NCBI GenBank assembly: GCA_964016885.1
Contig: OZ024743.1
Location: 192,389,655-192,453,654, forward strand
Origin: Eledone cirrhosa
Lineage: Eukaryota; Mollusca; Cephalopoda; Octopoda; Eledonidae
Direction of reading: 5' to 3'
Length of the DNA: 64,000 nucleotides
Made by a program: the position numbers and the translations under genes. Below are positions 5,052-60,418 of the stretch, one piece after another. The notes beneath the pieces were generated by a model that did not search any database, had not been told where the DNA came from, and saw only the letters and a program-made list of their open reading frames with translations. Numbering within the stretch: the first letter of the stretch is position 1; each line of letters begins with the position of its first letter.

Positions 5052-5800
5052 TCAAGCCTGCTTTTTGGCCTTGATTGTCTCTTCTACCTTACTGTTCCAC
5101 CACCAAGTTACTCTCTTCCTGCCAATAGGTCTGCTCCAGCCACAGATTTCATCCGTTGCTTTCAGCAGGTTCACTTTCAAGAATTGCCACTGTTCCTCTA
5201 TATCGCACGTCTCTAATTGCTCTTCCTTATTGTCAAAGGCATCAAGTAATAAGCTTTTAAATTTGTCACTGGCTATGGGGTCCTTCAACTTCCATATTCT
5301 TCTCCTCAAGGTAGGCCTCCTCTGTCGTCGAGTACGTCTATTTCTGACTGTGAGGTCACTAACTACTAGGCTATGTTGGGAGGTGCATTCTTCACGGGGG
5401 AGGGATTTAGTGTTTACAACAGACACTTTGTCCCGTCTTCTAGTAAGGATATAATCTATCTGGCTGGCGTGTTCGCCTGATCTATAGGTGATCAAGTGGT
5501 TTTCACGTTTTTTGAAGTTTGTGTTACAGATAGTTAGGTTATTGGCGTCACAGAATTCCAGGATTCTGAAGCCTTCCTCATTTCTATTTCCAACCCCATA
5601 GCCTCCATGGATTCCATCATAGCCATCACTATGTTGTCCAACGTGGTCGTTTAGATCGCCAGCAATAATTAGGTAGTCGGTGTCGGTTATTTGGGAGGTA
5701 GTGTGCATTAGCGTCTCATAGAACCTGTTCTTTGTAACGTCAAGTAGACCAGATTGGGGTGCGTAAGCAGATATTATTGTCACAGTAGTTTTATTTAGAA

Positions 5801-5802
<2 letters not shown>
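5052..5802 (-). pseudogene. RTE LINE endonuclease domain (5' truncated)
   Basis: Exonuclease-endonuclease-phosphatase fold that nicks the target DNA for target-primed reverse transcription. Motifs visible in order: ISAYAPQSG, the Asp/Asn motif YLIIAGDLNDHVG, TYRSGEHASQIDYILTRR, and the catalytic-His region TSQHSLVVSDL. The first strands of the fold, including the usual N-terminal Asn and Glu motifs, are cut off at the (TA)n tract. The frame ends at a TGA (5052-5054) that looks like C-to-T decay of an arginine codon, then continues in the same frame into the RT. Confidence 0.9.

Positions 5803-5855
<53 letters not shown>
5803..5855 (+). repeat. (TA)n at LINE 5' truncation point
   Basis: About 50 bp of TA directly at the point where the endonuclease frame loses homology. 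Confidence 0.93.
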
Positions 5856-5856
<1 letters not shown>

Positions 5857-6433
5857 AATATAAATTTAGCGAGAATCGCATTTCGGCGGGTAGAAATTAG
5901 CGAAACGCAACTTCCATATTGTGCAGACAAGCGCTCCATCGATATGAAGAAGAAGATACGAGAGCTATAAACATAAGTTAAAATGGTCCTACACGCTGAG
6001 ACGATGGTTAAGAAGCCATTAACCACCATAGCAAAAAAGCGAACAAGCTAAACGGATCAAACAAAATGAGATATGATTGAAATATTTACCCAGACCCTCA
6101 GGGAAGATGGAATACTCCTAAATTGGGTTTCTGCAACACCTAAATCAATAATACTGTCTGCTTATAAAAAAATAAGCTTTTGGTATAAAGATCGAACAAG
6201 GCATCGCTTTCTCGACCGGTTTTTGTTCTTCTTGCGCCAGAATCTCGCAGGTTATGAAAGCACATGCGAGATTCTAAGGGGAGAAAACCCTTATTTTGGC
6301 CAGTGAATTCAGCATGTGTAGTTATTCCAAAAATTTGCAAAAACCGCAGAAAACGAATTGTTTTTTAAATAAAATTAAGCGATTAATCAGTCAATAGAAT
6401 TAACTAAAAGCCCCCAAAATAATTAACTGGTTA

Positions 6434-6716
<283 letters not shown>

Positions 6717-6765
6717 GTATATTAATTCAAAATATTAACAAAATAGATATTGTTGTGATCAATTA

Positions 6766-6840
6766 TATTTTATTATACATATTTCAGAGGTACTGAGTTA
6801 ACTTCAACAGTACATCCTCATCAGATAAAATAAGATGATG
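6766..6840 (-). ncRNA. Hammerhead-ribozyme-like core, left arm 3' end
   Basis: Minus-strand counterpart of 15652-15730. CTGATGA is at 6818-6824 and GAAA at 6782-6785. Stem II has one mismatch and one G-U closing pair. The stem I halves TATTTTAT and ATAAAATA are identical to the other arm. The core nucleotides are unchanged although the surrounding sequence differs by several percent. Confidence 0.6.
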
Positions 6841-8160
6841 CATGACATACCCTGACATAGTAGATGGTTAAGATTCAGTCATGGTAGTGAGTAATATATG
6901 ACAAAACTCAATATTTATACCTTAATATTGAGAACATGAGAAATATATATAATACATACAATAGAGAGGGTGGTGTAATATAGCTTAAAAAATACATGGC
7001 ATCAATATAACAGTTGAAAAATTTAAATTACTGAAGAAAGAGGAAAGAAAGGAAAGCATGGAGGTAGAAATAGCTGATGGGATAATATAGTTAGTAGGTG
7101 CCTCGAAAGACAAATGAGAGGTGATTAAAGAGAGAGAGAGAGACAAAGGGGAATAATTTATGTTCAAGCTTATAGACAATTAACCATACATACAATATAT
7201 ATCTAAACTTATTTGGTTGACCGTTAATATTCAAAATATTTAATTTAAGTTAGTTCAGAGTAATGAATAATATTTTAGGTTTTAAAAGTTAATAGGTATC
7301 TGTATTAATATTATAGTATACTATCAAGTTTAATTTCTAAAATTCAAATTTTATGAAAGTAAACTTTACCAAAATTATTTATAATATTGACAACAGTTTA
7401 TATAATATAATTTATAAAATAATTATAGTTATAATTATTAAAGAATTTATGATTAACAATTTGAGTGCCTAAAGGATCAACAGGCCTTATAATTAAACTT
7501 AAAGAGGTCTGAATTTTAAATTATATATATGTGTTAATCAAAAAATATACAAGGATTATATTGTCTAAAGACTTAAGGTGATAACTTTCAAATATACATA
7601 ACATAATACAATAATACAATATAGTAAATAAGTTACGGAAAATATTGTTAAAAAAATATTTTTAAAAATTAATGTTTCATATCAATTCTTGTAAAAGGAT
7701 CATTTAGTTGATATATACTATAAATATATAAGTCAAAACTACATGAGTCCTAAGGATAAGGGCTAGATACAAAATAAATATAAAAATAAAAAGTGAAAAA
7801 TAATGAATTGTTTGCGAAACTTAAAAATGCCCAATATTAAAAAAATATAGTTTAAAATGTAATAGGGTTTTAATATATAGTAGACAAAAGATACTTCTAA
7901 AATGTCCAGCGAGTGTGATAGAAAGAGGAGCTAAAGACTTGAAAAAGCCGAAGGTAATCTAAATTTAATTAAAATAAATTAAATTATATTAAATTAAGTA
8001 ATAATCATTATATAATTTCGAACATCCAGGAAATATCTAACACTTATAACAATAGAGAGTCATTTGAGTATCTAAATTATTTATAAATGTAACTACGAGT
8101 ATGTTATTACACTAGATAGACATATTTGTACAACTATATATAGAGAGTATTATAGGTTAA

Positions 8161-9593
8161 TCATAATCTATAAAGCTCAGTGTGTGGACATGCTCCTTTG
8201 TTATAGAAATCTACGATATAGAATTTCTTCAATTGAAATTTACAATTTAGTATTCGAAATAACTTCGATTGCGTCTTGGCACATCTAATTTTTTCAATTT
8301 CACCCACAATTACGCAAAAAATAGATAAAACTCAATATTTTACGATTTTTCTCTCTCATTTAAACTGCTAAATTCTTTCTACTACCATTCAAAATCTATA
8401 CAACTTCATACTTTCTGCTACTTTCTCTTTCCAAGCTTTTACTCTCTCATATCATCTGCCTACCTCTATCTACAACCCACACATTTTGCTACTTTCTCTT
8501 TTATACTTCAAACTTACTGATTTATTTACAAACGCATACAAACACACACTGACTTCAAATGATAAAAAAAACATTTAAAGCAATTAAACAACGTGCGTGA
8601 TTTATAACCACACTAACTTTTAGTTGCTCAATTATTACATTTCATACGAAACGACAATTATTCAAAAGCAAGAGATACATTTATTCAACAACAAGCGATA
8701 AATCTTTTTTAAAACCTCTCAACGAACGTGGATTCTTACAGACTTTGAGTCGAATCGGTTTGAAATTGTGCAAATGTATAAACATGGAACATGTGCACAC
8801 ACACAACAACAACAACAATCTGCCTTTTATAGATAATGATAAACAATAATATCCTCTATGAGATCACTAAACCTGCTAGAAACAGCAGCTAACTCTCCCC
8901 CATACCACACCCCTCCCTACTGTCTTAAATTTAGAAAACATATCTTCTATGAGGTCACTAAACCTGCTAGAAACCGCAGCTAACTCTCCCCCATATCACA
9001 CCACTCCCCACTGTCTTAAATTTAGAAAACACATATCCTCTATGAGGTTACTAAACCTGCTAGAAACAGCAGCTAACTCTCCCCCATATCACACCCCTCC
9101 CTACTGACTTAAATTTAGAAAATATATCTTCTATGAGGTCTCTAAACCTGCTAGAAACAGCAGCTAACTCTCCCCCATATCACACCACTCCCTACTGTCT
9201 TAAATTTAGAAAACATATCCTCTATGAGGTCACTAAACCTGCTAGAAACAACAGCTAACTCTCCCTCATATCACAACCCTCCCTACTGTCTTAAATTTAG
9301 AAAACACACAGACAACCATGCAGAACAACTCCATCGCAGCTCTGTTGTTCGGCTGGCATCGTCTACGCGCGTGTTGCGCAAGTACTGTGAAACAATAAAT
9401 TCCAACACTTTTTGCACAGAGATAATATCCAAAGGCGAAACTACAATTGTCACTGCTGGCGCAGCTCCTGCTTCCAGGTCTGCAATTCATTCACCCAGTG
9501 CCTAGCAGACAAAAAAGTGCTGCCATAAAATGGGTGGTGCAACCTAACTTTGATAACTTAATGACCCCGAGCAACGCCGGGCTTTAATGCTAG
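8161..9593 (+). mobile_element. Non-autonomous Helitron inserted in left Penelope-like copy
   Basis: It begins with TC (TCATAATCTATAAAG) directly after an A, and ends with CTAG directly before a T. A GC-rich hairpin (CCCGAGCAACGCCGGG, stem with a one-base bulge) lies about 10 nt before the 3' CTAG. These are the Helitron hallmarks: no TSD, AT target, 5' TC, 3' hairpin plus CTRR. The opposite arm has the empty site (AA/TGAAACGG at about 14216-14224, reverse strand), fixing both borders to the base. No Rep/helicase coding is visible, so it must be mobilised in trans. Confidence 0.88.
8849..9310 (+). repeat. ~91-bp tandem repeat inside the Helitron
   Basis: Five consecutive units of about 91-93 bp, each starting ATCYTCTATGAGGTCACTAA and ending near AAATTTAGAAAACACA. 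Differences between units are scattered substitutions. Internal minisatellites are common in non-autonomous Helitrons. Confidence 0.9.
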
Positions 9594-10079
9594 TGAAACG
9601 ATATACATTTAATAAATAAATAATTATAATCATTATTAGTAATGCTATAATTGTAATTTTACCTCCAGTTCAGTGGAGAGAGAGACCAATATTTGTCGAC
9701 TAGTATGGTTTGTTATATTTATACCTAGATATATATAAAAAATATATAAGTGCAAATCTAACTTTCTGAGTCGCCAAAACATACCCAAAATAAGTAAAAT
9801 ATGCAAATGCAGGAATGATCTACAGTTCAATTATAACCGGTAATTTTACAAGTTAAATATCCAAATTATATATTTAAAACAGAGACAGATAAATAAAGAT
9901 CCGAATCTAAATTATAAATATCTAAAATAATCCTAAGGTGTGCATATTTATCAAGTAAACAAGTTACCAAATAATATGTTTATATACCTAAACAGGATCC
10001 TTCATTCTAACATTAATTCTATCATAAATAAAGTATTATTAAAGTTTTATAAACTGCTATAACATTTTAGGTCCAACAG

Positions 10080-10510
10080 TTGATAAGAGACGTCAAAAAT
10101 TAAAGCCTGTTTGTTTAGTGTTTTTTCCTGACTTTTTGCGAGGCTTGGAATGTAGACAAAGCTTTATGAAGGCAGTTTGAGAATAATTCACTTTTTTCGT
10201 TAATTAAGTTTTCATAATTAGTAATTATTAATAGGGTCTCCTTTGTGCAGAGGTTGCAGTTAGTTGATATAGACGAGTTTGAGTATATTTTACTATTACA
10301 AAGCTTCGTCCAAAAAATCGAGTATTTTTAATTTTCGTCTTTTAATGACCATATAAGTTGTGATAAAGAAGTCGAAGACTTCCTATTAAAATTTGAAAAT
10401 GAGCATTTGTGATTCGCAAATCTCGATTTAAATGTCGAAGAAGTTGCCCATATGTAGTAGTATGTGTTGTTATTTGTTTTTACGGTGCATTTATACACCA
10501 AATTTCTATC
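10080..10510 (-). pseudogene. GIY-YIG endonuclease remnant (left copy)
   Basis: The minus strand here is the counterpart of 13258-13700 in the right arm, which reads CRNKPDCPLQNNCLDRNLVY, YNYIGATSSRFANHKCSF and SLSQLIWSLKDKN. The left copy keeps the same order but with frameshifts and stops. GIY-YIG nucleases cut target DNA during retrotransposition of Penelope-like elements. Confidence 0.7.
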
Positions 10511-10629
10511 CAGACAATTATTTTGCAGAGCGTTTATTTCTACAATTACATTTCGATTTATTATTATTTATATTAACACTATTATTAACAGCATTATGCT
10601 GATTTTGGTTTAGAATTCTACTATTTAGT

Positions 10630-11303
10630 TTAGCGATGTTTTGGGCCATATTCATAGTTGTAGAAAATATTAAATATGGAACGGTATTTATGTTGACTAG
10701 GGAAGGAATTATCTAAAGCCGTAAAGAATAGATTAGCTAGTAGTGTTCTTACTGCTACAGAAGCAGGGTGGGGGGACCATATAACTGATTTAGTTCTGGT
10801 TCTTTCCCCCGATTTATTCACAGTACAGGTGTTTGAATTAGAATTTTTAGAATTTTTAGAATTTCGTTTATATATGCCAGTCATATTATTATTATTTTTA
10901 TCAGGATTAAGACTCGGATTATTATTGTCTATATATTCTATATTATTTTTATAACCTGCCTTTCTTAGCGCATCATTGTAATATCCTGCTTTTTCATCAA
11001 ATATTGATTTATTGGCAGATATTCTATTTATGCGTTTCTGTACACTATTTACAATTGTATTTTTCACAGATTTAGGGTGATTAGAGTAATAACTAACGTA
11101 ATTTAAGTTTTCATTGGGCTTATGGAAAGGGTAATAAAAACCAGAGTTTAAGTTAAAGGTACATCAAGGAAATTAACTATTTAGGTACCACTTTCTACCT
11201 CTAATTTAAGGTCGTAATTTTTAAAGAATTCAATTATATTTTTCTTTACCTTATTTAGTTCTGTATTGTTGTGTTTAACAACCGTAAATAAAATATCGTC
11301 CCT
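10630..11303 (-). pseudogene. Penelope-like RT motif C to linker (left copy)
   Basis: Continuation of the left RT: YRDDILFTVV, then FFKNYDLKLEVESGT, a stop, NFLDV, a probable 1-nt deletion near 11155, then FYYPFHKPNENL and SVQKRINRISANKSIFDEK. The end block RTRTKSVIWSPHPASVAVRT corresponds to the segment that precedes the GIY-YIG domain in this family. An expanded Asn/Ser/Lys stretch (about 10840-10920) is partly missing from the right copy. Confidence 0.75.
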
Positions 11304-11306
11304 ATA

Positions 11307-11984
11307 TCAACCACCGGTAATCTCCGGCAGTTTTCTATTTATCATACTTAAGATGAACATCCCCAGAAGATCCATGATTTGCGCTGAGTCCGATGATCCC
11401 ATGGCAATGTCGAAGTTTCTATTTCTATCTGAGCGGGTCCAATACTCATTGTTGAAATTAATTAGAGTTCTTCTAGCAGTTAATATGATATCGATTTCAT
11501 CCGTAGTTAGATCTGTATGTTTGTAAGCGTAGGATAAAGCCTTATTTAGTAGGTTAGGCGTAATGGAAGAGTAATAGCTTGCTATGTCCATCTGGATGAA
11601 TTTAGGGTTTTTCTTATCATCTATATTTTTATACCAATCAATCACTTCGTTTGTATCTTTCCACAAGCTCAATTTAGACCTCAATTTCAAAATAGGTAGA
11701 ATTCTATCAATAATATTTTTACTGATTACTCCAATATCCGATTTGGATGGAGCAATCAGTCTAACTGGCAGGTGTTCCTCAAAGTTTCTTTTGTGATCTT
11801 TAAAATTGATCCTTGGCTGTCTATTAATAACTCTGTCTATTAATAACTCTGGAAAACCATTACTGTTGAGTGCTTCGAATCTATTGTAAAACTCATTCTT
11901 TGATTTATTCATTGAACTTTGTTTAACTTTTAAATATATAATAGTATACCCCCACATCTCCCCTCTTCCGACCAACCCAACCAC
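11307..11984 (-). pseudogene. Penelope-like RT, N-terminal and palm part (left copy)
   Basis: About 225 residues, ending at a TGA (11304-11306) where the sister copy has a leucine codon. Recognisable blocks: the LKDH-like NFKDHKRNFEEHLPVRLI, PSKSDIGVISK, motif A FIQMDIASYYSSITPNLL, and the motif-B-like DIAMGSSDSAQIMDLLG. Just after the stop, YRDDILFTVV is the catalytic motif C. This RT type recurs in cnidarian and molluscan genomes as uncharacterised proteins with a C-terminal GIY-YIG domain. I assign it to Penelope-like elements by that domain pairing. Confidence 0.8.
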
Positions 11985-12582
11985 GGATTACACACATTGG
12001 CCATCGTTCCCACCAATCAACTCCATCACAAGGAAAATATCCGGCATCTCACCATACCCTCTACGGAACTACCTTAGGAACTTACCCACATACATACACT
12101 CACAAACATTTTTTTCCCACCCGCCACCTACATCCACAATACGTATAAACACCACACACACACATATTTACACACTCAGCCTCCGGAATCCTCAGTCCAT
12201 GGGATGAATTTAGTAGAAGTAGTTCCACAACAGTTAGTTCACCATTACCGAGAACAATTGTTTCACCTTATTCAGATCATCAGTTCAGTTTAAATGAGGT
12301 TGTACGGAAAAGGAAAAACAACTGTACGAATATGCAAGATCAGAAACAGTCACTTCCCAAAGGGGGCGGGGGCGACCACGTTAGATCGGTGTTAGGGAGA
12401 CGACTGTGGATACTCGGAATAATAGATTATTCATGTTATTCAGTCCAGAATATTATAGATTGTTCATGTTAGTCAATCTGGAGCTTTGTAATTACGTAAT
12501 AGGTGTTTCCAGACGTGTGGACAATGCAAAAAAGTTCTTTCTTTGAATTTAGACAAGCGCTGTTACGTTATTTTCTCAGGAT
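11985..12582. other. Spacer between the two Penelope-like 5' ends
   Basis: About 600 bp, less AT-rich than the arms, not inverted-repeated. A plus-strand frame near 12200-12330 (LNEFSRSSSTTVSSPLPRTI) is open for some 40 codons but matches nothing I recognise. Perhaps the remaining 5' leader of one copy. Confidence 0.5.
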
Positions 12583-12594
12583 AAATTCATCCAG

Positions 12595-12990
12595 ATGGAC
12601 ATAACAAGCTATTACTCTTCCATTACGCCTAACCTACTAAGTAAGGCTTTATCATACGCTTACAAACATACAGATCTAACTACGGATGAAATTGATATCA
12701 TATTAACTGCTAGAAGAACTTTAATTAACTTCAACAATGAGTATTGGACCCGCTCAGATAAAAATAGAAACTTCGACATTACCATGAGATCATCTGACTC
12801 AGCGCAAATCACGGATCTTCTGGGGATTTTCATCTTAAATATGATAAACAGAAAACTGCCGGAGATTACCGGTGGTTTATATAGGGACGATATTTTATTT
12901 ACGGTTGTTAAACACAACAATATAGAACTAAATAGGGTAAAGAAAAATATAATTGAATTCTTTAAAAATTACGACCTGTACTGTGAATAA
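12595..12990 (+). pseudogene. Penelope-like RT palm fragment (right copy)
   Basis: Encodes MDITSYYSSITPNLLSKALS, ILTARRTLINFNNEYWTRSD, MRSSDSAQITDLLG and the intact motif C GGLYRDDILFTVVKHNN, then NIIEFFKNYD. It ends early where the 382-bp deletion joins it to the downstream linker out of frame. Confidence 0.8.
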
Positions 12991-13234
12991 ATCGGAGGAA
13001 AGAACCAGAACTAAATCAGTTATATGGTTTGCCCCCCTCCCTTCTTCTGTAGCAGTAAGAACACCAATAGCTAATCTATTTTTTAAAGCTTTAGATAGTT
13101 CATTCCTTAGTCAACATAAATACCACTCCATGTTTAACAGACACACATTTAAACTGTCTTATTCTACAACTATGAATATGGCCCAAAACATCGCTAAAAT
13201 AAACAGTATAATTCTAAACCAAAATCAACATTAA
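12953..13234 (+). pseudogene. Penelope-like linker block (right copy)
   Basis: From the deletion junction this frame encodes RTRTKSVIWFAPLPSSVAVR and HKYHSMFNRHTFKLSYSTTM, the conserved block ahead of the nuclease in this family. It stops at tandem stop codons near 13232. Confidence 0.7.
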
Positions 13235-13257
13235 TAATATTGTTAATATAAATAATA

Positions 13258-13700
13258 ATAAATCGAAATGTAATTGTAGAAATAAACCAGATTGCCCTCT
13301 GCAAAATAATTGTCTGGATAGAAATCTGGTGTATAAATGCACCGTAAAAACAAATAACAACACATACAACTACATAGGAGCAACTTCTTCGAGATTTGCG
13401 AACCACAAATGCTCATTTTCGAATTTTAATAGGAAGTCTTCGACTTCTTTATCACAACTTATATGGTCATTAAAAGACAAAAATTTAAAATACTCGATCT
13501 TTTAGACGAAGCTTTGTAATAGTAAAATATATACGAACTCATCCATATCAATTAACTGCGACCTCTGCACAAAGGAGACCCTATTAATAATTACTAATTA
13601 TGAAAACTTAATTAACAAAAAAAGTGAATTATTCTCAAACTGCCTTCATAAAGCTTTGTCTACATTCCAAATCTCGCAAAAAGTCAGGAAAAAACAGTAA
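13258..13700 (+). pseudogene. GIY-YIG endonuclease domain (right copy)
   Basis: Cys-rich lead CNCRNKPDCPLQNNCL, then VYKCTV, the GIY-YIG core NYIGATSSRFANHKCSF, and TSLSQLIWSLKDKNLKYSI. After a lesion near 13500 come CDLCTKETLLIITNYENLIN and LFSNCLHKALS. The YIG half of the motif is intact (NYIG). At least one stop/frameshift is present. Confidence 0.75.
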
Positions 13701-15651
13701 ACAATCAGGCCTTAATTTTTGACGTCTCTTATCAACTGTTGGGCCTAAAAAGTCATAACGGTTTATAAAACTTTAATAATGCTTTATCTTCTAATCATTT
13801 ATGATAGAATTAATGTTAGAATGAAGGATACTCTTTTGATAACTTGTTTATTTGATAAATATGCATACTTTATGATTTTTTTTTATATTTATAATTTTGA
13901 TTCAGATCTTTATTTATCTGTCTCTCTTTTAAATATATAGTTTGGATATTTAACTTGTAAATTTACTGATTATAATTGAACTGTGGATCATTCAGGCGTT
14001 TGCATATTTTACATATTTTACTCATTTTGAGTATGTTTTGGGGGACTCAGAAAGTTAGATTTGCATTTATTTTTTTATATATAGCTAGGTATAAATATAA
14101 CAAACGATAATAGCCGACAAATATTGGTCTATCTCTCCACTGAACTCGAGGTAAAACTACAATTATAGCATTACGAATAATGATTATAATTATTGTTTTT
14201 TATTAAATGTATACCGTTTCATTAATACCTATAATAATATCTCTATATAGTTGTACAAATATCTTCATCTAGTGTAATAACATAATCGTAGTTACATTTA
14301 TAAATAATTTAGACACTCAAATGACTGTATATTGTTATAAGTGTTTGATATTCCCTGGAAGTTCGAACTTGTATAATGATTTTTACTTAATATAATATAA
14401 TTTAATTTAACTTATTTTATTTTATTTTAATTAAATTTAGATTACCTTCGGCTGTTTCAAATATTTAGCTCCTCTTTATATCACATTCGCTAAAATATTT
14501 TAGATGTATCTTTTGTATACTATATTAAAACCCTATTACATTTATAATATATTTCTAATATTGGGCATCTTTAAGTTTCGCAAACAATTCATTTTCTTTT
14601 TTTTATTTGTATATTTATTTTGTGTCTAGCCCCTATCATTATGACTCATATAGTTTTGACTTATATGTTTATAGTATATATCAACTAAATGAAAATAATT
14701 GATATAAAACATCAATTCTTTAGCAATATTTTCTAACAATATATTTTTTTAACTATATATATATTTTTAATAATATTTTCAGTAACTCATTTACTATATT
14801 GTATTATTGTATTATATTATATATATATTTGAAAGGTATCACCTCAATTATAAACAAATAATAAACTATAATCCTTGTATTTTTTGATCAACAGATATAT
14901 ATAATTAAAAATTCGGTCTTCTTTAAGTTTAGTTATAAGGCCGGTTGATCCTTTAGGCACTCAAACTATTTAACAATAAATTCTTTAATAATTATAACTA
15001 TAATTATTTTATAAATTATATTATATAAACTGTTGTCAATATTATAAATAATTTTGGTAAAGATTTGGGGTTATATAAGCATTATATATCTTCTTTCTCG
15101 TGTTTCGTAAATCCTTTAAATTTGTTTTCATAAAATTTGAATTTTAGAAATTAAACATAATTATAATATTAATATAAATACCTATTAACTTTTAAAACCT
15201 AAAATATTATTCATTACTCTGAAATAACTTAAATTAAATATTTTGAAAATTAACGGCCAAATATAATATATTATATTAATTTGGATATGTGTTGCATATA
15301 TGGAAATCTGTATATAAACTTGAACATAAATTACTCCCCTTTGTCTCTCTCTCTCTTTAATCATCTTTCATCTGTTTTTTTCAAGCCACTTACTAAATAT
15401 ATTATCACATCGGCTGTTTCTTCCTTTATGCTTTCCTTTCCCTCCTCTTTCTCCAGTAGTTTTTAAACAAATTTTATAACTGTTATATTGATGCCATGTA
15501 TTTTTTTAAACTGTATTATACGCACCCTCTCTATTGTTTGTATTATGTTATCTCATGTTCTCAATATTAGGGTATAAATATTGAGTTTTGTCATATGTTA
15601 ATCACTACCATGACTGAATCTTAACCATCTACTATGTCAGGGTATATCATG

Positions 15652-15730
15652 CATCATCTTATTTTATCTGATGACGACGTACTGTTAAACTTAACTCAGT
15701 ACCTCTGAAATATGTATAATAAAATATAAT
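15652..15730 (+). ncRNA. Hammerhead-ribozyme-like core, right arm 3' end
   Basis: CTGATGA at 15668-15674, a 10-nt stem II with two mismatches (15675-15684 with 15697-15706), then GAAA at 15707-15710. Stem I can form 8 perfect pairs between TATTTTAT just before CTGATGA and ATAAAATA at 15719-15726. Stem III would be only 2 bp (TA-TG-TA), followed by TA as the UH cleavage dinucleotide. Minimal hammerheads with very short helix III are known from Penelope-like elements. Activity is inferred from the fold only. Confidence 0.6.
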
Positions 15731-15740
15731 TGATCACAAA

Positions 15741-16018
15741 TGTTGTATGGACTGTGAATCGAACTCACAACCTCATTGTTGTATGGACTGTTAAATTCGA
15801 TTTGTTCAATTTACACGTGCTCACACATTTGCATATGAATACGTGACCTGGGCAGTCAGTCAACGTTGGTATTAAAAACTCGATCACAGACTGCTACTTA
15901 CTTACTTTATGTTATTCTGCTACTGCGAGGAGGGGCGTTTTGGTTGTTTCGCAAATTACACAAATTATTTGATATAACTCGTTGTGTTTTCTCTGCGAGT
16001 ACCGAGAGGAATACAACA
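15741..16018 (+). repeat. 5' LTR of Ty3/gypsy element
   Basis: It starts TG and ends CA and differs from the 3' LTR at a handful of positions (about 1-2% by eye, including a small indel). An internal repeat of TTGTATGGACTGT occurs twice in the first 60 bp. Confidence 0.93.
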
Positions 16019-16125
16019 GAGTTTATTGGCGTCGCCGATAGGATTTACCTACATTGCCGATAGGATTTGCCTACATTGCCGATAGGATTTACCTACATTG
16101 CCGGGAAATTGTTTATCACAAAAAC
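16019..16125 (+). promoter_or_regulatory. Gypsy 5' leader with 25-bp triplication
   Basis: Eight bases after the LTR, TGGCGTCGCCGATAGGAT could be the primer-binding site, though I cannot name the tRNA. A unit of about 25 bp (GCCGATAGGATTTACCTACATT) follows three times. The first 18 bases after the LTR, plus the last 6 of the LTR, are also found inside gag at about 16271-16293. Confidence 0.5.
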
Positions 16126-16747
16126 ATGGCGGAACAACAAACAGCGGAGCTAATAAAGTTGTTTAGAGAACAGATGGAACAACAAATGCAACAACAGGAA
16201 CAACAAATGCAACAACACAAGAAAGATATGGACACTCTGATAAAACTGTTTGGTGCTCGAGATTCTGAACAACAGAGTTTATTGGCGTCGCCAGTTGCTT
16301 CGACACCAACAGCATTCATCCCACCATTTGCTGCTTTTGATTCAACAACAGAACTATGGCCTGATTACTGGTCAAGATTCTGCACGTTTGTGGCTGCTAA
16401 CGCTGTACCCGAGCAACGCATGGCACAAGTGCTCCTGACTAATCAGACGGCTGCTATCTACAAACAACTTGCAAATCTGGCTGCTCAACAAAATCCGCCT
16501 AAGAATATCAACAAGTTGACAATGGGCGAAATTGTTGACTTCATGAAAGAACAGTTCGACCCAAAACTTTTCATTGTGAGAGAAGGTTTCAAGTTCTGGA
16601 GTGACATGCAACGGAAGCCAGGCGAAACTCTCCAAGAGCTGGCAGCACGTATACGTCAGAATGCAGCTACCTGTGATTTTTCTTTGATCACAAATCCACA
16701 AGATGAAGCTCTAAGACAGATTTATATGTTCTGTCAATAATGAAGCT
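16126..16747 (+). pseudogene. Gypsy gag (capsid part), frameshifted
   Basis: The likely start is the ATG of MAEQQTAELIKLF at 16126; upstream in-frame codons belong to the leader repeats. A Gln-rich coiled-coil-like N-terminus (QMEQQMQQQEQQMQQHKK) precedes a capsid-like domain: FDSTTELWPDYWSRFCTFV, LTNQTAAIYKQLANLAAQQ, KPGETLQELAARIRQNAA. This resembles gag of other invertebrate Ty3/gypsy elements. A 1-nt indel near 16715 puts the stop at 16738-16740. The downstream frame resumes with the zinc knuckles. Confidence 0.88.
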
Positions 16748-17476
16748 GTGTTGAAGGCTATTTTCAAGATCAAGGATACAGAACTAGATTTCACCCGTGC
16801 TGTCCAAGTTGCCATCGGGACCGAAGACGCAGCAAAGGTTGCCAAGGAAACTGTTCACGGTTCCAAAACCAAGAAAGTCTACAAGGTCCAGCAGAACAAG
16901 AACAAGGGTCCTCGAAAGAACTATCAGCAGTCTTATTCCACAGACCAGGAGATGTGCTACCGATGTGGAAAGGCCCACGAAGCGACAGACTGCCCCTTCA
17001 AAGAAGCCAAATGTTATTTTTGTGACAGAAAGGGACATTTGCAAGCGGTGTGTAGAAAGAAACAACATCAGCAACGTAATCATCGCTCACAGAATTACGT
17101 GAAAAGAATCACGAAAGCTGAGCTAGTCAAAGCGATCCTTGGTGAAGTTCCCCACGATACTCATAGTTTGAAGGTGCCAATAACAATCCAGAACAGACTT
17201 TTCACAATGGAATTGGACACAGCTACTACAGGTAATTTTGTTTCCTTGTCAGTTTGGAAACAATTAGGAAAACCAAAGCTGCAAGATGTCAAACATCGGT
17301 TTGAATCTGCCAGCAAGCACGACCTGCCCGTTCTGGGAACTTTCATGGGCCAAACCAAGATCCAACGACCGGTAAACGGAATTCAATACCCTACATCGTC
17401 ACCAAGATCCCTGATCTTAATTTGCTGGGACGAAGCGCTATCCAGACTCTGGGAATTTCCGTGGACAATGCTCTAG
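16748..17476 (+). pseudogene. Gypsy nucleocapsid zinc knuckles and aspartic protease
   Basis: Two CCHC-type knuckles: CYRCGKAHEATDCP (C-x2-C-x4-H-x4-C) and CYFCDRKGHLQAVC. The retropepsin region reads FTMELDTATTGNFVSL, where the usual active-site DTG/DSG triad is DTA. A 1-nt loss near 17365 throws the end of the frame off; the true continuation is in the frame that opens at 17422. Confidence 0.85.
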
Positions 17477-18888
17477 GATTGAAAAGCATAGACAGCCAGG
17501 CCAAGAGTGAGGGTGCAGAAGTGATGCATCCAAAGATCTCAACTGAGCCCTATATTTCCATGCAACGAGATTGTCACATGTGTGATGAATTCCCAGATCT
17601 CTTCAAGCAAGAATTGGGATGTCTTAATGACTTCGAACTGGAAGTGAAGTTCAAGTCGGACGCGACACCGGTCTTTCACAAGGCACGCCCGGTCCCGTTT
17701 GCTCTTCGTGATGACCTGGCCAAAGGTTACGAAGAAGGCATCGCCAAAGGAATCTGGAAGCCAGTACAGTTCAACGAATACGGAACGCCAGTGGTACCGA
17801 TTCGTAAAGCACATACTTTAGGCAACCTGAAGCCCAAACTACGGATTTGTGGTGACTACTCTGTGGGAATTAACGACCAACTTGCAGATCATCGTCATCC
17901 AATGCCACTCCCAGAGGAACTGATGCAGAAGCTCGGAGGTGGATTCGGATACACAAAGATTGATCTTGCTGATGCCTATAATCAGATCAAGCTGGCTCCA
18001 GAAAGTCAACGCAGGCTTGCACTCAGCACTCACCGTGGGGTGCTCCTGCAGGAACGACTCCCTTTCGGAATCAAGTCAGCACCTGGTTACTTTCAGGAGA
18101 TCATGGAAAACCTGACTCAAGATCTACCTGGTGTGGCCGTCTTCCAGGCCGACATGCTCGTCAGTGGGAAAGATGCAAACGATCACCTGAACAACCTGAA
18201 GTGTCTGCTCACACGTCTGTGCGACAAAGGACTCGGATGTCGCCGTGACAAGTGCCAGTTTGCACTACCCAGTGTGGAATACCTTGGACACACCTTGTCG
18301 GCTGAAGGGATCGCGAAAGGATCCAAGGTCGAAGCAGTTTTAAAGATGCCACCTCCAACGAACGTCTCAAGCTTGAAGTCTTTCCTGGGTTCAATTCAGT
18401 TCTATGGAAAGTTTATCCCAAACCTGGCCAGCATGGCAGAGCCACTCTATTTCCTTACGAAAAAAACGACTACTTGGAAGTGGGGAGATGAAGAACAGTC
18501 AGCTTTCGATCAGTTGAAAAATGTGCTTTCATCGGATCGAGTTCTGATACACTTCGATCCAAACAAAACTTTGGGACTGACTTGCGACGCGTCAAACGTT
18601 GGTATTGGAGCAGTCCTGTTTCATCGCTATCCTGATGGAAGCGAGCGCCCAATATCCAATGTGTCCAAGACTCTTACTTCTGCACAGCGTAACTACGGCC
18701 AAATTCAAAAGGAAGCCCTGGCCATCATATTTGGCTTGCAGAAGTTCTATCAGTATCTGTACGGACATCAGTTTATACTCTTAACTGACCACAAGCCACT
18801 GACATCACTGTTCAGTCCGAGGAAAGGGACGCCACTTCTCGCTGCTAACCGACTAGCACGGTGGGCCCTGTGGGCTGAACCAGTTTGA
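17422..18888 (+). pseudogene. Gypsy reverse transcriptase-RNase H
   Basis: RT blocks: LRICGDYSVGIND, GYTKIDLADAYNQIKLAPES, RLPFGIKSAPGYFQEIM, and the catalytic block FQADMLVSG, where the first of the two expected aspartates is alanine. The thumb/connection follows (EYLGHTLSAEGI, LKSFLGSIQFYGKFIPNLAS). RNase H: LTCDASNVGIGAVLF, KEALAIIFGLQKFYQYLYG, LLTDHKPLTSLF. A one-base insertion near 18870 causes a premature end inside the conserved R-L-A-R-W-A-L segment. Confidence 0.9.
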
Positions 18889-20368
18889 CTACACCATCGA
18901 ATATCGGAAAACAGCGGATCATGGCAATGCAGATGCCTTCAGTCGCTTGCCATTTGGTAATGACATTGACTTTGACAGGAAGCAAAAAGGTGAAGACATG
19001 GACATGGTGTGCGCCATCAAAGCTCTCAGTCTTCAAGTCCAACCTATCGATTCTAACGTCCTCCGTCAAGAGGCAGGGAAAGATCCAGTGATATCTACAG
19101 TGATACGCTACGTCCGTGAAGGCTGGCCACCAAAGAATACTGAGATCAATGACGAAGTCAATAAGTTCCGGAAGTTATCGGATTCACTCAGTATCTGCCA
19201 TGGATCGAGAGTTGTTATTCCCCATAGCTTACAGCCAAAGATCCTCAATCTTCTGCATCTCGGACACTTTGGCATGGAGCGCATGAAACAATTGGCAAGA
19301 ACTGCTGTTTATTGGCCTGGTATCGATGCTGCTATAGAGAAAACCAGTCGACAATGTGATTCGTGTGGTGAACATCAAAACCAGCCATCCAAGTCTCCAG
19401 TTCACCCATGGATGTTACCTGAAAAGCCGTGGAGCCGCTTACACCTGGACCACGCAATAAATTTCATGGGCAGTAATTGGTTGGTGATCACGGATGCTTA
19501 TTCTAAGTATCCATGCATTCATCCTACGTCATCCACGTCCTCCAGAGCCACTTTAGATCTGCTTGAAGAAGACTTTGCGCACTTCGGATTTCCTCACACG
19601 CTAGTCACCGATAACGTACCAATTTTTATTTCTGAGGAGTTCCAGAGCTGGTGCAAAGAACGTGGGATCACGCACCTGACAGGGGCACCTTACCACCCAG
19701 CTACTAACGGAGCAGCGGAACGTTTGGTACAGACCTTCAAACAAGCTCTGAGGAAGACTTCTCTTCCGCCGAAGCGAGCACTTCAAGAGTTCTTGATGCA
19801 GTACCGGAGAACACCGACATCCAGTGGATTCTCTCCGAGTGAACTTTTGAATCACCGGCAGATACGGACAAGGATTGATTCTCTGCTGCCCTCGCCAGCA
19901 CACATCGCTCAAGGCAAGCAGTCTAAGGAAGCATATAAGTATCAGATGACTCCGGAATCGGCAGGTGTCGCTAAGGTTACCAGGCAGTACAATGCTGGAG
20001 ATCCTGTGTATGCACTGTACTACGGACCTCGCCGAGACAAAGATCCCCGATGGGTACCAGCAATCATTGAGAAGTCATTGGGTACTCGCTGCTTCAACGT
20101 TAAGGTCATACCTCATGGCCCGGTGTGGAGACGACACTGGGAACAGCTGCAACCGCGGTACACTACTGAGGAAGACAATGAACCTGGTGATGCAGTAGAC
20201 ACTGTTTTTGAATTTGCAACAGATCACCCGATGGAGATCTCGGAAATCGTGCCACTAACTCCAAGACAGACCAGACCCAAGACCTTGTTGCCCGTTCCAG
20301 AGTATGGACCAGACAATCGAAGACGGTCCAAGAGAACTCGTAAACCCCCAGAGAGACTTTGCTGTTGA
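18889..20368 (+). pseudogene. Gypsy integrase
   Basis: The frame continues the RNase H tail (ADAFSRLPF) past the frameshift. H2C2 zinc region: LLHLGHFGMERMKQLA, VYWPGID, QCDSCGEHQ. The catalytic core has Asp in LHLDHAINF, Asp-Asn in VTDNVPIFISEEF and Glu in NGAAERLVQTFKQAL, so the DDE triad is present. A C-terminal basic tail (RRRSKRTRKPPERLCC) ends at 20368. This domain is open for about 470 codons and is the best preserved part of the element. Confidence 0.9.
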
Positions 20369-20402
20369 TGCTTCTTTTGTCGCATCAATTTCGGTGGGGA
20401 GA

Positions 20403-20679
20403 TGTTGTATGGACTGTGAATCGAACTCACAACCTCATTGTTGTATGGACTGTTAAATTCGATTTGTTCAATTTACACGTGCTCACACATTTGCATATGA
20501 ATCACGTGACCTGGGCAGTCAGTCAACGTTGGTATTAAAAACTCGATCACAGACTGCTACTTACTTACTTTGTTATTCTGCTACTGCGAGGAGGAGCATT
20601 TTGGTTGTTTCGCAAATTACACAAATTATTTGATATAACTCGTTGTGTTTTCTCTGCGAGTACCGAGAGGAATACAACA
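20403..20679 (+). repeat. 3' LTR of Ty3/gypsy element
   Basis: Matches the 5' LTR over its whole length, preceded by the purine-rich tract at about 20392-20402. Confidence 0.93.
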
Positions 20680-20709
20680 ACAAGAATATCTATTTTGTTA
20701 ATATTTTGA

Positions 20710-20744
<35 letters not shown>

Positions 20745-20776
20745 GAATTTACTTTCGAGAATAGCTGTATACAGAT

Positions 20777-21292
20777 ATGTATTGGAATATCGTAATTCTA
20801 AAGAAATGTGGTATGTTTATAAATAAACATTTAGAAAGACGTAGCTATCCAAAAAACACCGGCGGCTGTCGCCACCTGGCGGTGTCCAGCAGAACAAAGT
20901 GGGACAATCGTCGATGCATTTCGAACTGAACAGCTTCTCATTAGAACGATTCCTCCCGCCCTTGCAACTGCTGGACTTTGAAAACAGGCGAGAAAATATA
21001 GTTTTCTCGTCTGTGTAAATGAGGGAATTAGTCTCATTTACATATGAAGCTGTATAAGATGAGAAAACTATATATTCTTGCCAGTTTTCAAAGTCTAGCA
21101 GTTGCAAGAGCGGGAGAGATCGTCCTGATCAGAACCAGTTTAGTTCGAAATGCATCAACAATTGTCCCCCTTACTTCTGCTGGAGACCACCAGGGGGCGA
21201 TAACCGCCGGTGTTTGTGCATAGCTACGGCCTTCTAAATGTTTATTTATAAACATACCATATTTCTTTAGAAATACGAAATTCCAATACATA
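20777..21292. mobile_element. Foldback (palindromic) element, ~250-bp arms
   Basis: The left arm (20777-about 21030) is the inverted complement of the right arm (about 21040-21292), roughly 85-90% by eye, around a short central spacer. The ends read ATGTATTGGAAT and ATTCCAATACAT. No coding potential. Transcripts could fold into a long hairpin. Confidence 0.85.
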
Positions 21293-21434
21293 AATATATG
21301 TCCTTGAGCAAGACACTTTATTTCACGTTGTTCCTTCTACCTGGAGTTGCGACCGATAGATAGTACTAGCAACTGAAAAGACCAACGGAAGCATTGTTTC
21401 CTCGGTCCGATTTGACGAAAGTCGATCGATCCTT

Positions 21435-21467: not shown

Positions 21468-21503
<36 letters not shown>

Positions 21504-21509
<6 letters not shown>

Positions 21510-21798
21510 TGGGAACAAAGCATCAGTATTGCATCGTATACATATTTAATTACATATTACATATGTTTCGCTGCCAATCAGCTCGAGGATCGATCGAATA
21601 ATGTTCATTCCTGACTCTGGAATGGATGCATTTGGACGTGCATCTACATGTGAGAACACATATCTGAGAAACTTCCGATTCCAGAGTCGGGAACGAACAT
21701 TATTTGATTGTTCCCCGAGTTGATCGGCAATGAAACATATGTAATATATAATTAAATATGTATATGATGCAATACTGATTTTTCATTCCCATTTATTA
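21504..21798. mobile_element. Second palindromic element, ~120-bp arms
   Basis: Left arm 21504-21625 and right arm 21680-21798 are inverted complements with scattered mismatches. Shared segments include CAGTATTGCATC, ACATATTTAATTA and GACTCTGGAAT. It lies 200 bp from the previous foldback, separated by (TA)n tracts. Confidence 0.82.
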
Positions 21799-21879
21799 TT
21801 ATTGATGCTCTGCTCCCCAAGAGCATCGCGTGCTCATCTTGGCATACCACCTGTGAACAAAATTCAATTGCACCTCTAC

Positions 21880-29659: not shown

Positions 29660-29869
29660 CCCTTTAATGTTCAAACCGGCCAAAATTCTCTACCTCTTTC
29701 CGTTGAAACTGGCTGTAACTGGTCGCTCAAACTGATATTAAGGTATTGTTCTCAAAATAAATACTTTCAAAATCTCATAGATTCGATATTATGTGAGATA
29801 ATTATGTGAGGTAAAGCCTTTACCATGAAAATATAATAGTATATATAAAATAATGTGAATGCTAAAGGG
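29660..29869. mobile_element. TTAA MITE, family A, copy 5
   Basis: TTAA at 29656-29659 and 29870-29873; CCCTTTAATGTTC and GAATGCTAAAGGG ends. Only 150 bp from copy 4 and in the same orientation. Confidence 0.85.
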
Positions 29870-30274: not shown

Positions 30275-30432
30275 ATCATCACCATTTTCCATCTATTTTC
30301 CATGCTTGCATATGTTAAACAGGTTGACGAGTCAGATGATCATGTCAAGTTCATACATAACCATTCTGGCATGGTTTCTACAACTGGATGCCCTTCTTAA
30401 TGCCAATCACTTAACAATATGGCTTGGGAGCA
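30275..30432 (-). repeat. SINE copy that seeds a minisatellite
   Basis: The standard SINE modules run into the 48-bp tandem array beginning at about 30430. Confidence 0.75.
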
Positions 30433-31195
30433 TTTTACCTTGGCACTAGCACTACCACTTTACAGAGTAGGCAGGGTGCATTTTACCTTGGCACTAGCAC
30501 TACCACTTTACAGAGTAGGCAGGGTGCATTTTATCTTGACACTAGCACTACCACTTTACAGAGTAGGCTGGGTGCATTTTATCTTGGCACTAGCACTACC
30601 ACTTTACAGAGTAGGCAGGGTGCATTTTACCTTGGCACTAGCACTACCACTTTACAGAGTAGGCAGGGTGCATTTTACCTTGGCACTAGACTACCACTTT
30701 ACAGAGTAGGCAGGGTGCATTTTACCTTGGCACTAGCACTACCACTTTACAGAGTAGGCAGGGTGCATTTTACCTTGACACTAGCACTACCACTTTACAG
30801 AGTAGGCAGGGTGTGTTTTATCTTGACACTAGCACTACCACTTTACAGAGTAGGCTGGATGCATTTTATCTTGGCACTAACCTTACCACTTTACAGAGTA
30901 GGCAGGGTGCATTTTACCTTGGCACTAGCACTACCACTTTACAAAGTAGGCTGGATGCATTTTATCTTGGCACTAACCTTACCACTTTACAGAGTAGGCA
31001 GAGTGCATTTTACCTTAGCACTACCACTTTACAGAGTAGGCTGGGTGCATTTTACCTTGGCACTACCACTTTACAGAGTAGACAGAGTGCATTTTACCTT
31101 GGCACTAGCACTACCACTTTACAGAGTAGACAGGGTGCATTTTATCTTGGCACTAGTACTACCACTTTACAGAGTAGGTTGAGTGCATTTTATTT
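30430..31195 (+). repeat. 48-bp minisatellite derived from SINE
   Basis: About 16 units of TTTTACCTTGGCACTAGCAC, TACCACTTTACAGAGTAGGC, AGGGTGCA. Since 48 is a multiple of 3, frames stay open (up to about 250 codons), but the repeat is non-coding by origin. The unit is the SINE segment that elsewhere lies once beside GGATGCCCTTCCTAAC. Confidence 0.92.
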
Positions 31196-31356
31196 ATGAA
31201 ACACACATAGTTTCAAAAATGCAAACGTGATTTAGGCAGTGTATTTCTTTAATATTTATTTTTATTTTCCTAGCATGGGCGTAGTTGAACATATCATCAT
31301 CATTATTTAACTTGTTTTCCATGCTTGGATGGGATTGATATGTATCACATTCACAG

Positions 31357-39809: not shown

Positions 39810-60418
<20,609 letters not shown>

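Follow-up and report, generated by a model that had tools for sequence, protein, structure and literature searches.

The hammerhead-ribozyme-bearing Penelope-like elements (PLEs) of Cervera and de la Pena (2014) reportedly carry the hammerhead, with a short helix III, within a pseudo-long terminal repeat (pLTR). For the PLE of Anolis, PMC11167929 describes a protein that cleaves and extends both target strands and begins reverse transcription at two sites, one on either side of the tail. For Adineta vaga, PMC3846280 already describes the tail as optional on one of the inverted pLTRs, and favours self-priming because of palindromes in inverted junctions. Here we analysed a head-to-head pair of PLE copies in a 64,000-nucleotide stretch of the Eledone cirrhosa genome (assembly GCA_964016885.1, contig OZ024743.1, positions 192,389,655 to 192,453,654 of the forward strand), referred to below as the window. 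The pair is best read as two independent insertions of one endonuclease-bearing PLE family in opposite orientation, ∼0.6 kb apart (probability roughly 0.92). The genome contains many copies of this family, whose single insertions often have a head-to-head structure of their own, both 3′ ends pointing outward. The window pair itself is ordinary, showing that two invaded insertions can mimic an inverted duplication of several kilobases; what merits follow-up is the tail tendency of the family.

A blastn comparison of the window with itself recovered two inverted arms, both running outward from a spacer of ∼0.6 kb:

6719 to 11823, minus strand: arm A, a PLE copy with its 3′ end at the left, containing reverse transcriptase (RT) and GIY-YIG parts and 5′-truncated in the open reading frame (ORF) at RQPRINF
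12582 to 15739, plus strand: arm B, a PLE copy 5′-truncated at KFIQMDI, with an internal deletion of ∼0.36 kb
20680 to 20713, plus strand: tail-less 3′ end of arm B, GAATTAATAT, followed by (TA)n

Including a gypsy element, arm B spans 12582-20713 on the plus strand. The matched pieces were 11209-11604 with 12582-12977 (396 bp, within the RT), 9591-10903 with 12906-14224 (middle) and 6753-8172 with 14210-15739 (3′ part), and the outermost common ∼30 bp lay at 6719-6747 and 20680-20713. In this piecewise comparison, where a Helitron and the gypsy element fall between the compared pieces, identities were 95.7, 92.8 and 91.6%, with 0, 13 and 30 gap openings, respectively. The original prediction of inverted arms, of a PLE with RT and GIY-YIG parts running outward, and of a Helitron in one arm and a gypsy element in the other was thus borne out. 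Its estimate of 5-6% mismatch was replaced by an uneven divergence of 4.3, 7.2 and 8.4% in the three pieces, and by 8.8% overall (91.2% identity over 2568 columns of a multiple alignment). It placed the arm end at 11606, but arm A runs on to 11823 and is then followed by an inverted tail. Relative to arm A, arm B has its start 218 bp deeper in the RT-coding sequence, and the ∼0.36 kb that it lacks between the RT and endonuclease parts is kept in arm A and many other copies.

The relatedness of the arms was assessed in an alignment of 24 sequences, consisting of 22 copies or arms from genome loci (labelled L0xx) and the two window arms. The nearest relatives of arm B were L021 (96.3%), then L024 and L036, and arm A, at 91.2%, ranked only 22nd among its 23 partners. 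The best partners of arm A were L038 (93.6%) and L039 (93.5%); arm B ranked 10th of 23. In the maximum-likelihood tree arm A grouped with L038 and L039 (support 100/100) and arm B fell outside that clade. The tip branch of arm A measured 0.047 and that of arm B 0.021, lengths consistent with an older arm A. Two pairs presumed to result from single events served as controls, and in both the arms were sisters: the head-to-head L036 arms (8-bp overlap) were 98.8% identical over 961 columns (95.5/98), and the tail-to-tail L028 arms 99.9% identical over 2127 columns (100/100). Judged by that identity, the L028 pair is a very recent single event or a duplication. The abutting arms of L038 were also sisters in a tree of 0.3 kb (90/94).

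Arm A belongs to an insertion with a target duplication and a 5′ junction of its own:

6712 to 6721, no strand: left target-site duplication of arm A, TAATAGTATA, an exact 10-mer present at 6712 and 11939
11824 to 11838, plus strand: head-to-head junction of arm A, with a 16-bp tandem duplication (TCTATTAATAACTCTG)
11838 to 11936, plus strand: inverted terminal 'tail' forming the minor arm of insertion A, an 87% match to the tail module, its terminus also found by motif
11939 to 11948, no strand: right target-site duplication of arm A, TAATAGTATA, repeating the 10 bases of 6712-6721

The final 2-3 bases of the left duplication are ambiguous with the element end. When 200,000 pairs of positions were drawn at random from the window, 28 had in common a 10-mer composed of at least three kinds of base, and 45 any 10-mer at all. 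With the minor arm included, insertion A extends from 6719 to 11936 and carries the Helitron. When the 5′ junction of arm A was used as a query, 40 of 88 candidate genome places were scored, and a full match was obtained in the window alone; at the other 39 the match started at query base 30-38, on the body side or at most 8 bases from it. L049 is a separate insertion whose junction is similar to that of arm A yet different. By its ends, insertion A is complete and closed on both sides. Of the two arms, a short target-site duplication was resolved for arm A only.

The spacer between the arms consists of two parts:

11949 to 12193, plus strand: spacer repeat 1, a dispersed repeat of ∼250 bp with 40 scored matches including itself
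12191 to 12581, plus strand: spacer repeat 2, with 41 matches including itself, interrupted by arm B

Relatives of spacer repeat 1 other than itself were 89-94% identical, and the copy at L025 has different flanks. Spacer repeat 2 reads past the arm B breakpoint in 7/7 other aligned copies (in L046 by only ∼40 bases), and meets arm B with a 3-base overlap, ATA. A search of the window for its lost continuation returned only chance matches of 18-21 bp, and the repeat was not resumed. As this continuation was not found, arm B is left without a clean target duplication; its insertion probably came with, or later suffered, a deletion of target DNA. The spacer is made of two unrelated foreign repeats, which are not mirrored. 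To the right of arm B, long palindromes occupy 20769-21299 and 21502-21799, with arms 85-89% complementary, resembling miniature inverted-repeat transposable elements.

The different closest relatives of the arms, the target duplication and 5′ junction of arm A, and the spacer of two unrelated repeats together argue for two insertions, one of the two options that the original prediction had offered. The other holds that a single PLE insertion was duplicated in inverted orientation and subsequently received the Helitron and the gypsy element; it would account for the common family, the opposite orientation, the close spacing and the matching termini. It is nevertheless extremely improbable: the arms are not mutual closest relatives, arm A is closed by a target duplication of its own and by an inverted tail, which is absent from arm B, the spacer repeats are not mirrored, and arm B begins 218 bp further into the RT. 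Copies with other flanks end at the same GAATTAATAT terminus, an observation named in the original prediction as pointing away from a duplication, and the outermost shared bases that it regarded as informative are therefore the normal 3′ end of the element, silent on duplication.

A single composite insertion, with both target strands primed, two template RNAs and host DNA captured between them, has a precedent in the captured spacers that PMC3846280 describes for Adineta Pen1 elements. The family in question does produce head-to-head insertions, and the abutting arms at L023, L031 and L034 may stem from different templates. In the window, however, the target duplication at 11939-11948 closes arm A before the spacer starts, the spacer is two repeats joined together rather than one captured piece, and the tip branches differ about twofold, making an origin of this kind very unlikely.

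Several observations weigh against two independent insertions. The TAATAGTATA 10-mer has a third, unrelated occurrence in the window at 29834. No target duplication can be demonstrated for arm B, where (TA)n lies on the right and the broken repeat is not resumed in the window, and the tree node beside arm B is weak (45/62). Chance would produce 0.78 same-family pairs <1 kb apart genome-wide if all 1530 candidates were copies, 0.08 for 500 and 0.001 for 55, so that chance proximity of the arms is plausible, not compelling. Finally, the abutting arms of L023, L031 and L034 are not sisters either (0.3-kb tree). Non-sister arms alone are hence no proof of two events, and the case for two insertions therefore rests also on the target duplication of arm A.

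From the observed sub-lineages, termini, target duplication of arm A, junctions and later insertions, the following course can be proposed. Arm A, probably the older, is of L038/L039 origin; its insertion at (TG)n-TAATAGTATA gave the 10-bp target duplication and is a small head-to-head insertion in its own right, a complementary DNA (cDNA) of ∼3.7 kb, Helitron excluded, and one of ∼0.1 kb being joined at their 5′ ends. Arm B derives from another sub-lineage, arrived 5′-truncated and became joined to a different repeat via the 3-base overlap. The Helitron entered arm A and the gypsy element arm B afterwards. Target-primed reverse transcription is the mechanism that we infer; in the head-to-head cases both strands of the target would have been primed, as PMC11167929 reports for the Anolis PLE in vitro.

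Helitrons have a TC 5′ end and a CTAG 3′ end, and insert between A and T without target duplication. The two later insertions are as follows:

8161 to 9593, plus strand: Helitron in arm A, with TC...CTAG ends, inserted at A^T
15740 to 20679, plus strand: gypsy-type long terminal repeat (LTR) element in arm B, with LTRs at 15740-16018 and 20402-20679

The Helitron boundary is exact, since the empty A^T site is visible in arm B; judged on its ends and this empty site, 8161-9593 agrees with the Helitron pattern in both respects. Over 277 aligned bases the two gypsy LTRs show 2 differences, and the insertion is therefore recent. The ORFs of this element were named presumptively by motif. Elsewhere in the window, an open frame at 5052-6047 (minus strand) is a candidate endonuclease of the non-LTR retrotransposon kind, judged by motif. 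A tandem array with a period of ∼48 bp at 30408-31202 is related to 40105-40538 and 57483-57875.

The family is an addition to the known kind of PLE that combines RT and GIY-YIG endonuclease, pLTR, a hammerhead-like motif and a tail. The RT piece of L025 had 299 homologues, and YRDD was invariant in 36 aligned sequences. Its structural model (predicted local distance difference test score 83.8) was matched best by Foldseek to retron and defence-associated RTs, telomerase and a group II intron RT. The GIY-YIG endonuclease is present downstream of the RT. In Pfam, seven of eight element pieces gave no family and the eighth one sub-threshold irrelevant match, the RT pieces giving none; of six homologues five likewise gave no family and the sixth one sub-threshold match. 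Precomputed annotation of the RT homologues assigned PF26215 to many and PF00078 to one among the 120 listed. A sequence search of the PDB yielded one irrelevant match for the RT piece (E 0.8) and none for the endonuclease piece. At L025 and L029 the 3′ segment occurs twice, once with terminus and tail ahead of the N-terminal part of the ORF and once at the 3′ end, so that pLTRs, as a (partial) tandem arrangement plus tail, are present. Neither window arm is full-length, and only the tail of arm A remains of the pLTR/tail arrangement.

A descriptor search predicted hammerhead-like motifs in the pLTR of both arms and gave 18 further matches in the family. Those in the window are:

6774 to 6824, minus strand: hammerhead-ribozyme-like motif of arm A, with predicted cleavage at 6774
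15668 to 15718, plus strand: hammerhead-ribozyme-like motif of arm B

In total the descriptor gave 22 matches in 246 kb (21 sources) vs 2 in 2.46 Mb of shuffled sequence, the family matches not being independent of one another. Rfam returned no hammerhead match in the window or five loci; most of its low-E entries there were microRNA models that fell on palindromic or TA-rich repeats. On the minus strands of L021 (7863) and L027 (7150) there are hammerhead-like motifs with another stem II and the same core and short helix III, which may perhaps belong to other, neighbouring PLE families.

Every intact terminus found in the family is either GAATTAATAT, which lacks the tail, or the tail end TTTTAAATA, usually beside TA repeats. 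Plain insertions with both sides visible had no tail in 5/5 cases (L021, L022, L032, L033 and arm B); L029 and L039, whose 5′ side reads N, also had none. Of the seven head-to-head insertions visible at both ends, six had exactly one tail: L023/L031/L034 (counted once), L025, L035, L036, the main copy of L037, and arm A. The seventh event, a 0.3-kb piece at L037 5930-6270 to the right of the main copy, has an inverted tail on its left and, on its right, an apparent diverged tail beyond a hairpin insertion of ∼0.1 kb after the terminus; with two apparent tails it probably breaks the one-tail rule. The count excluded L038 and L049 (one end out of view) and L024, L026, L030 and L040 (no intact terminus). 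Tail-to-tail PLE pairs joined via short (TA)n are found at L027 (6877-6988) and L028 (5453-5581), with no tail at the meeting ends; at L027 there may also be a 5′ arm, made up of ∼10 bases of inverted tail, which was left out of the tail count.

The minor arms measured from ∼0.1 kb (arm A, L025, L037) to ∼1.6 kb (L036, 5147-6733, of which 6114-6501 was unmatched). Junction overlaps were 4 bp at L023, 8 bp at L036 and 1-2 bp at L037 and L025, and arm A has its short duplication; at L035 and L038, 20 and 68 bp were assigned by BLAST to neither arm. L023, L031 and L034 are near neighbours sharing one head-to-head junction (contig C2, 310.76-310.89 Mb), and three copies of one insertion in 0.12 Mb suggest local amplification. 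Their arms differ from each other by 6.7-9.7%; between neighbours the left arms differ by 4.1-4.7% and the right arms by 5.5-5.8% compared with L023. This hints at arms from two templates, on a short stretch where an old insertion would diverge as well.

These tail counts could reflect an asymmetric two-ended reaction. A separate cDNA would be primed by each target strand, as a rule with one starting at the no-tail site and the second at the tail site; the templates would sometimes be two different RNAs, and microhomology would then join the 5′ ends. Plain 5′-truncated insertions would then be the one-ended outcome using the no-tail site. Two-sided priming explains the outward 3′ ends, the asymmetric 5′ truncation and the microhomology. 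We hold the asymmetric scheme, our own reading of genome structure at seven events, to be tentative and on balance doubtful. Its odds are lowered by the seventh event, by the optional tail already described for Adineta and by the start sites of the Anolis PLE, which were alike on top and bottom strands in vitro (PMC11167929). At L023/L031/L034 and L036 the truncation points where the arms meet are unequal, whereas PMC3846280 infers self-priming for Adineta vaga from palindromic junctions, and judged on these points the L023 and L036 junctions would fit self-priming less well. Tail counts per insertion would discriminate between separate priming of both target strands, as for the Anolis element, and self-priming. 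The PLE literature searched, covered in part and including portions of PMC3846280, PMC11167929 and PMC12910113, yielded no tail counts per head-to-head insertion.

Compared with hammerhead-bearing PLEs, the family described here likewise has a hammerhead-like motif in the pLTR, although the predicted motif is unrecognised by Rfam models. In Adineta vaga, the Penelope elements with an endonuclease (Pen2a_Av and others) have a tail of 31 bp (PMC3846280), in contrast to ∼0.1 kb here. PAc (Poseidon, Anolis carolinensis; PMC11167929) resembles the Eledone family in its hammerhead motif, its tail between two start sites and its AT-rich targets. PAc shows no strand difference in start site in vitro, whereas six of seven head-to-head insertions of the family described here are one-tailed.

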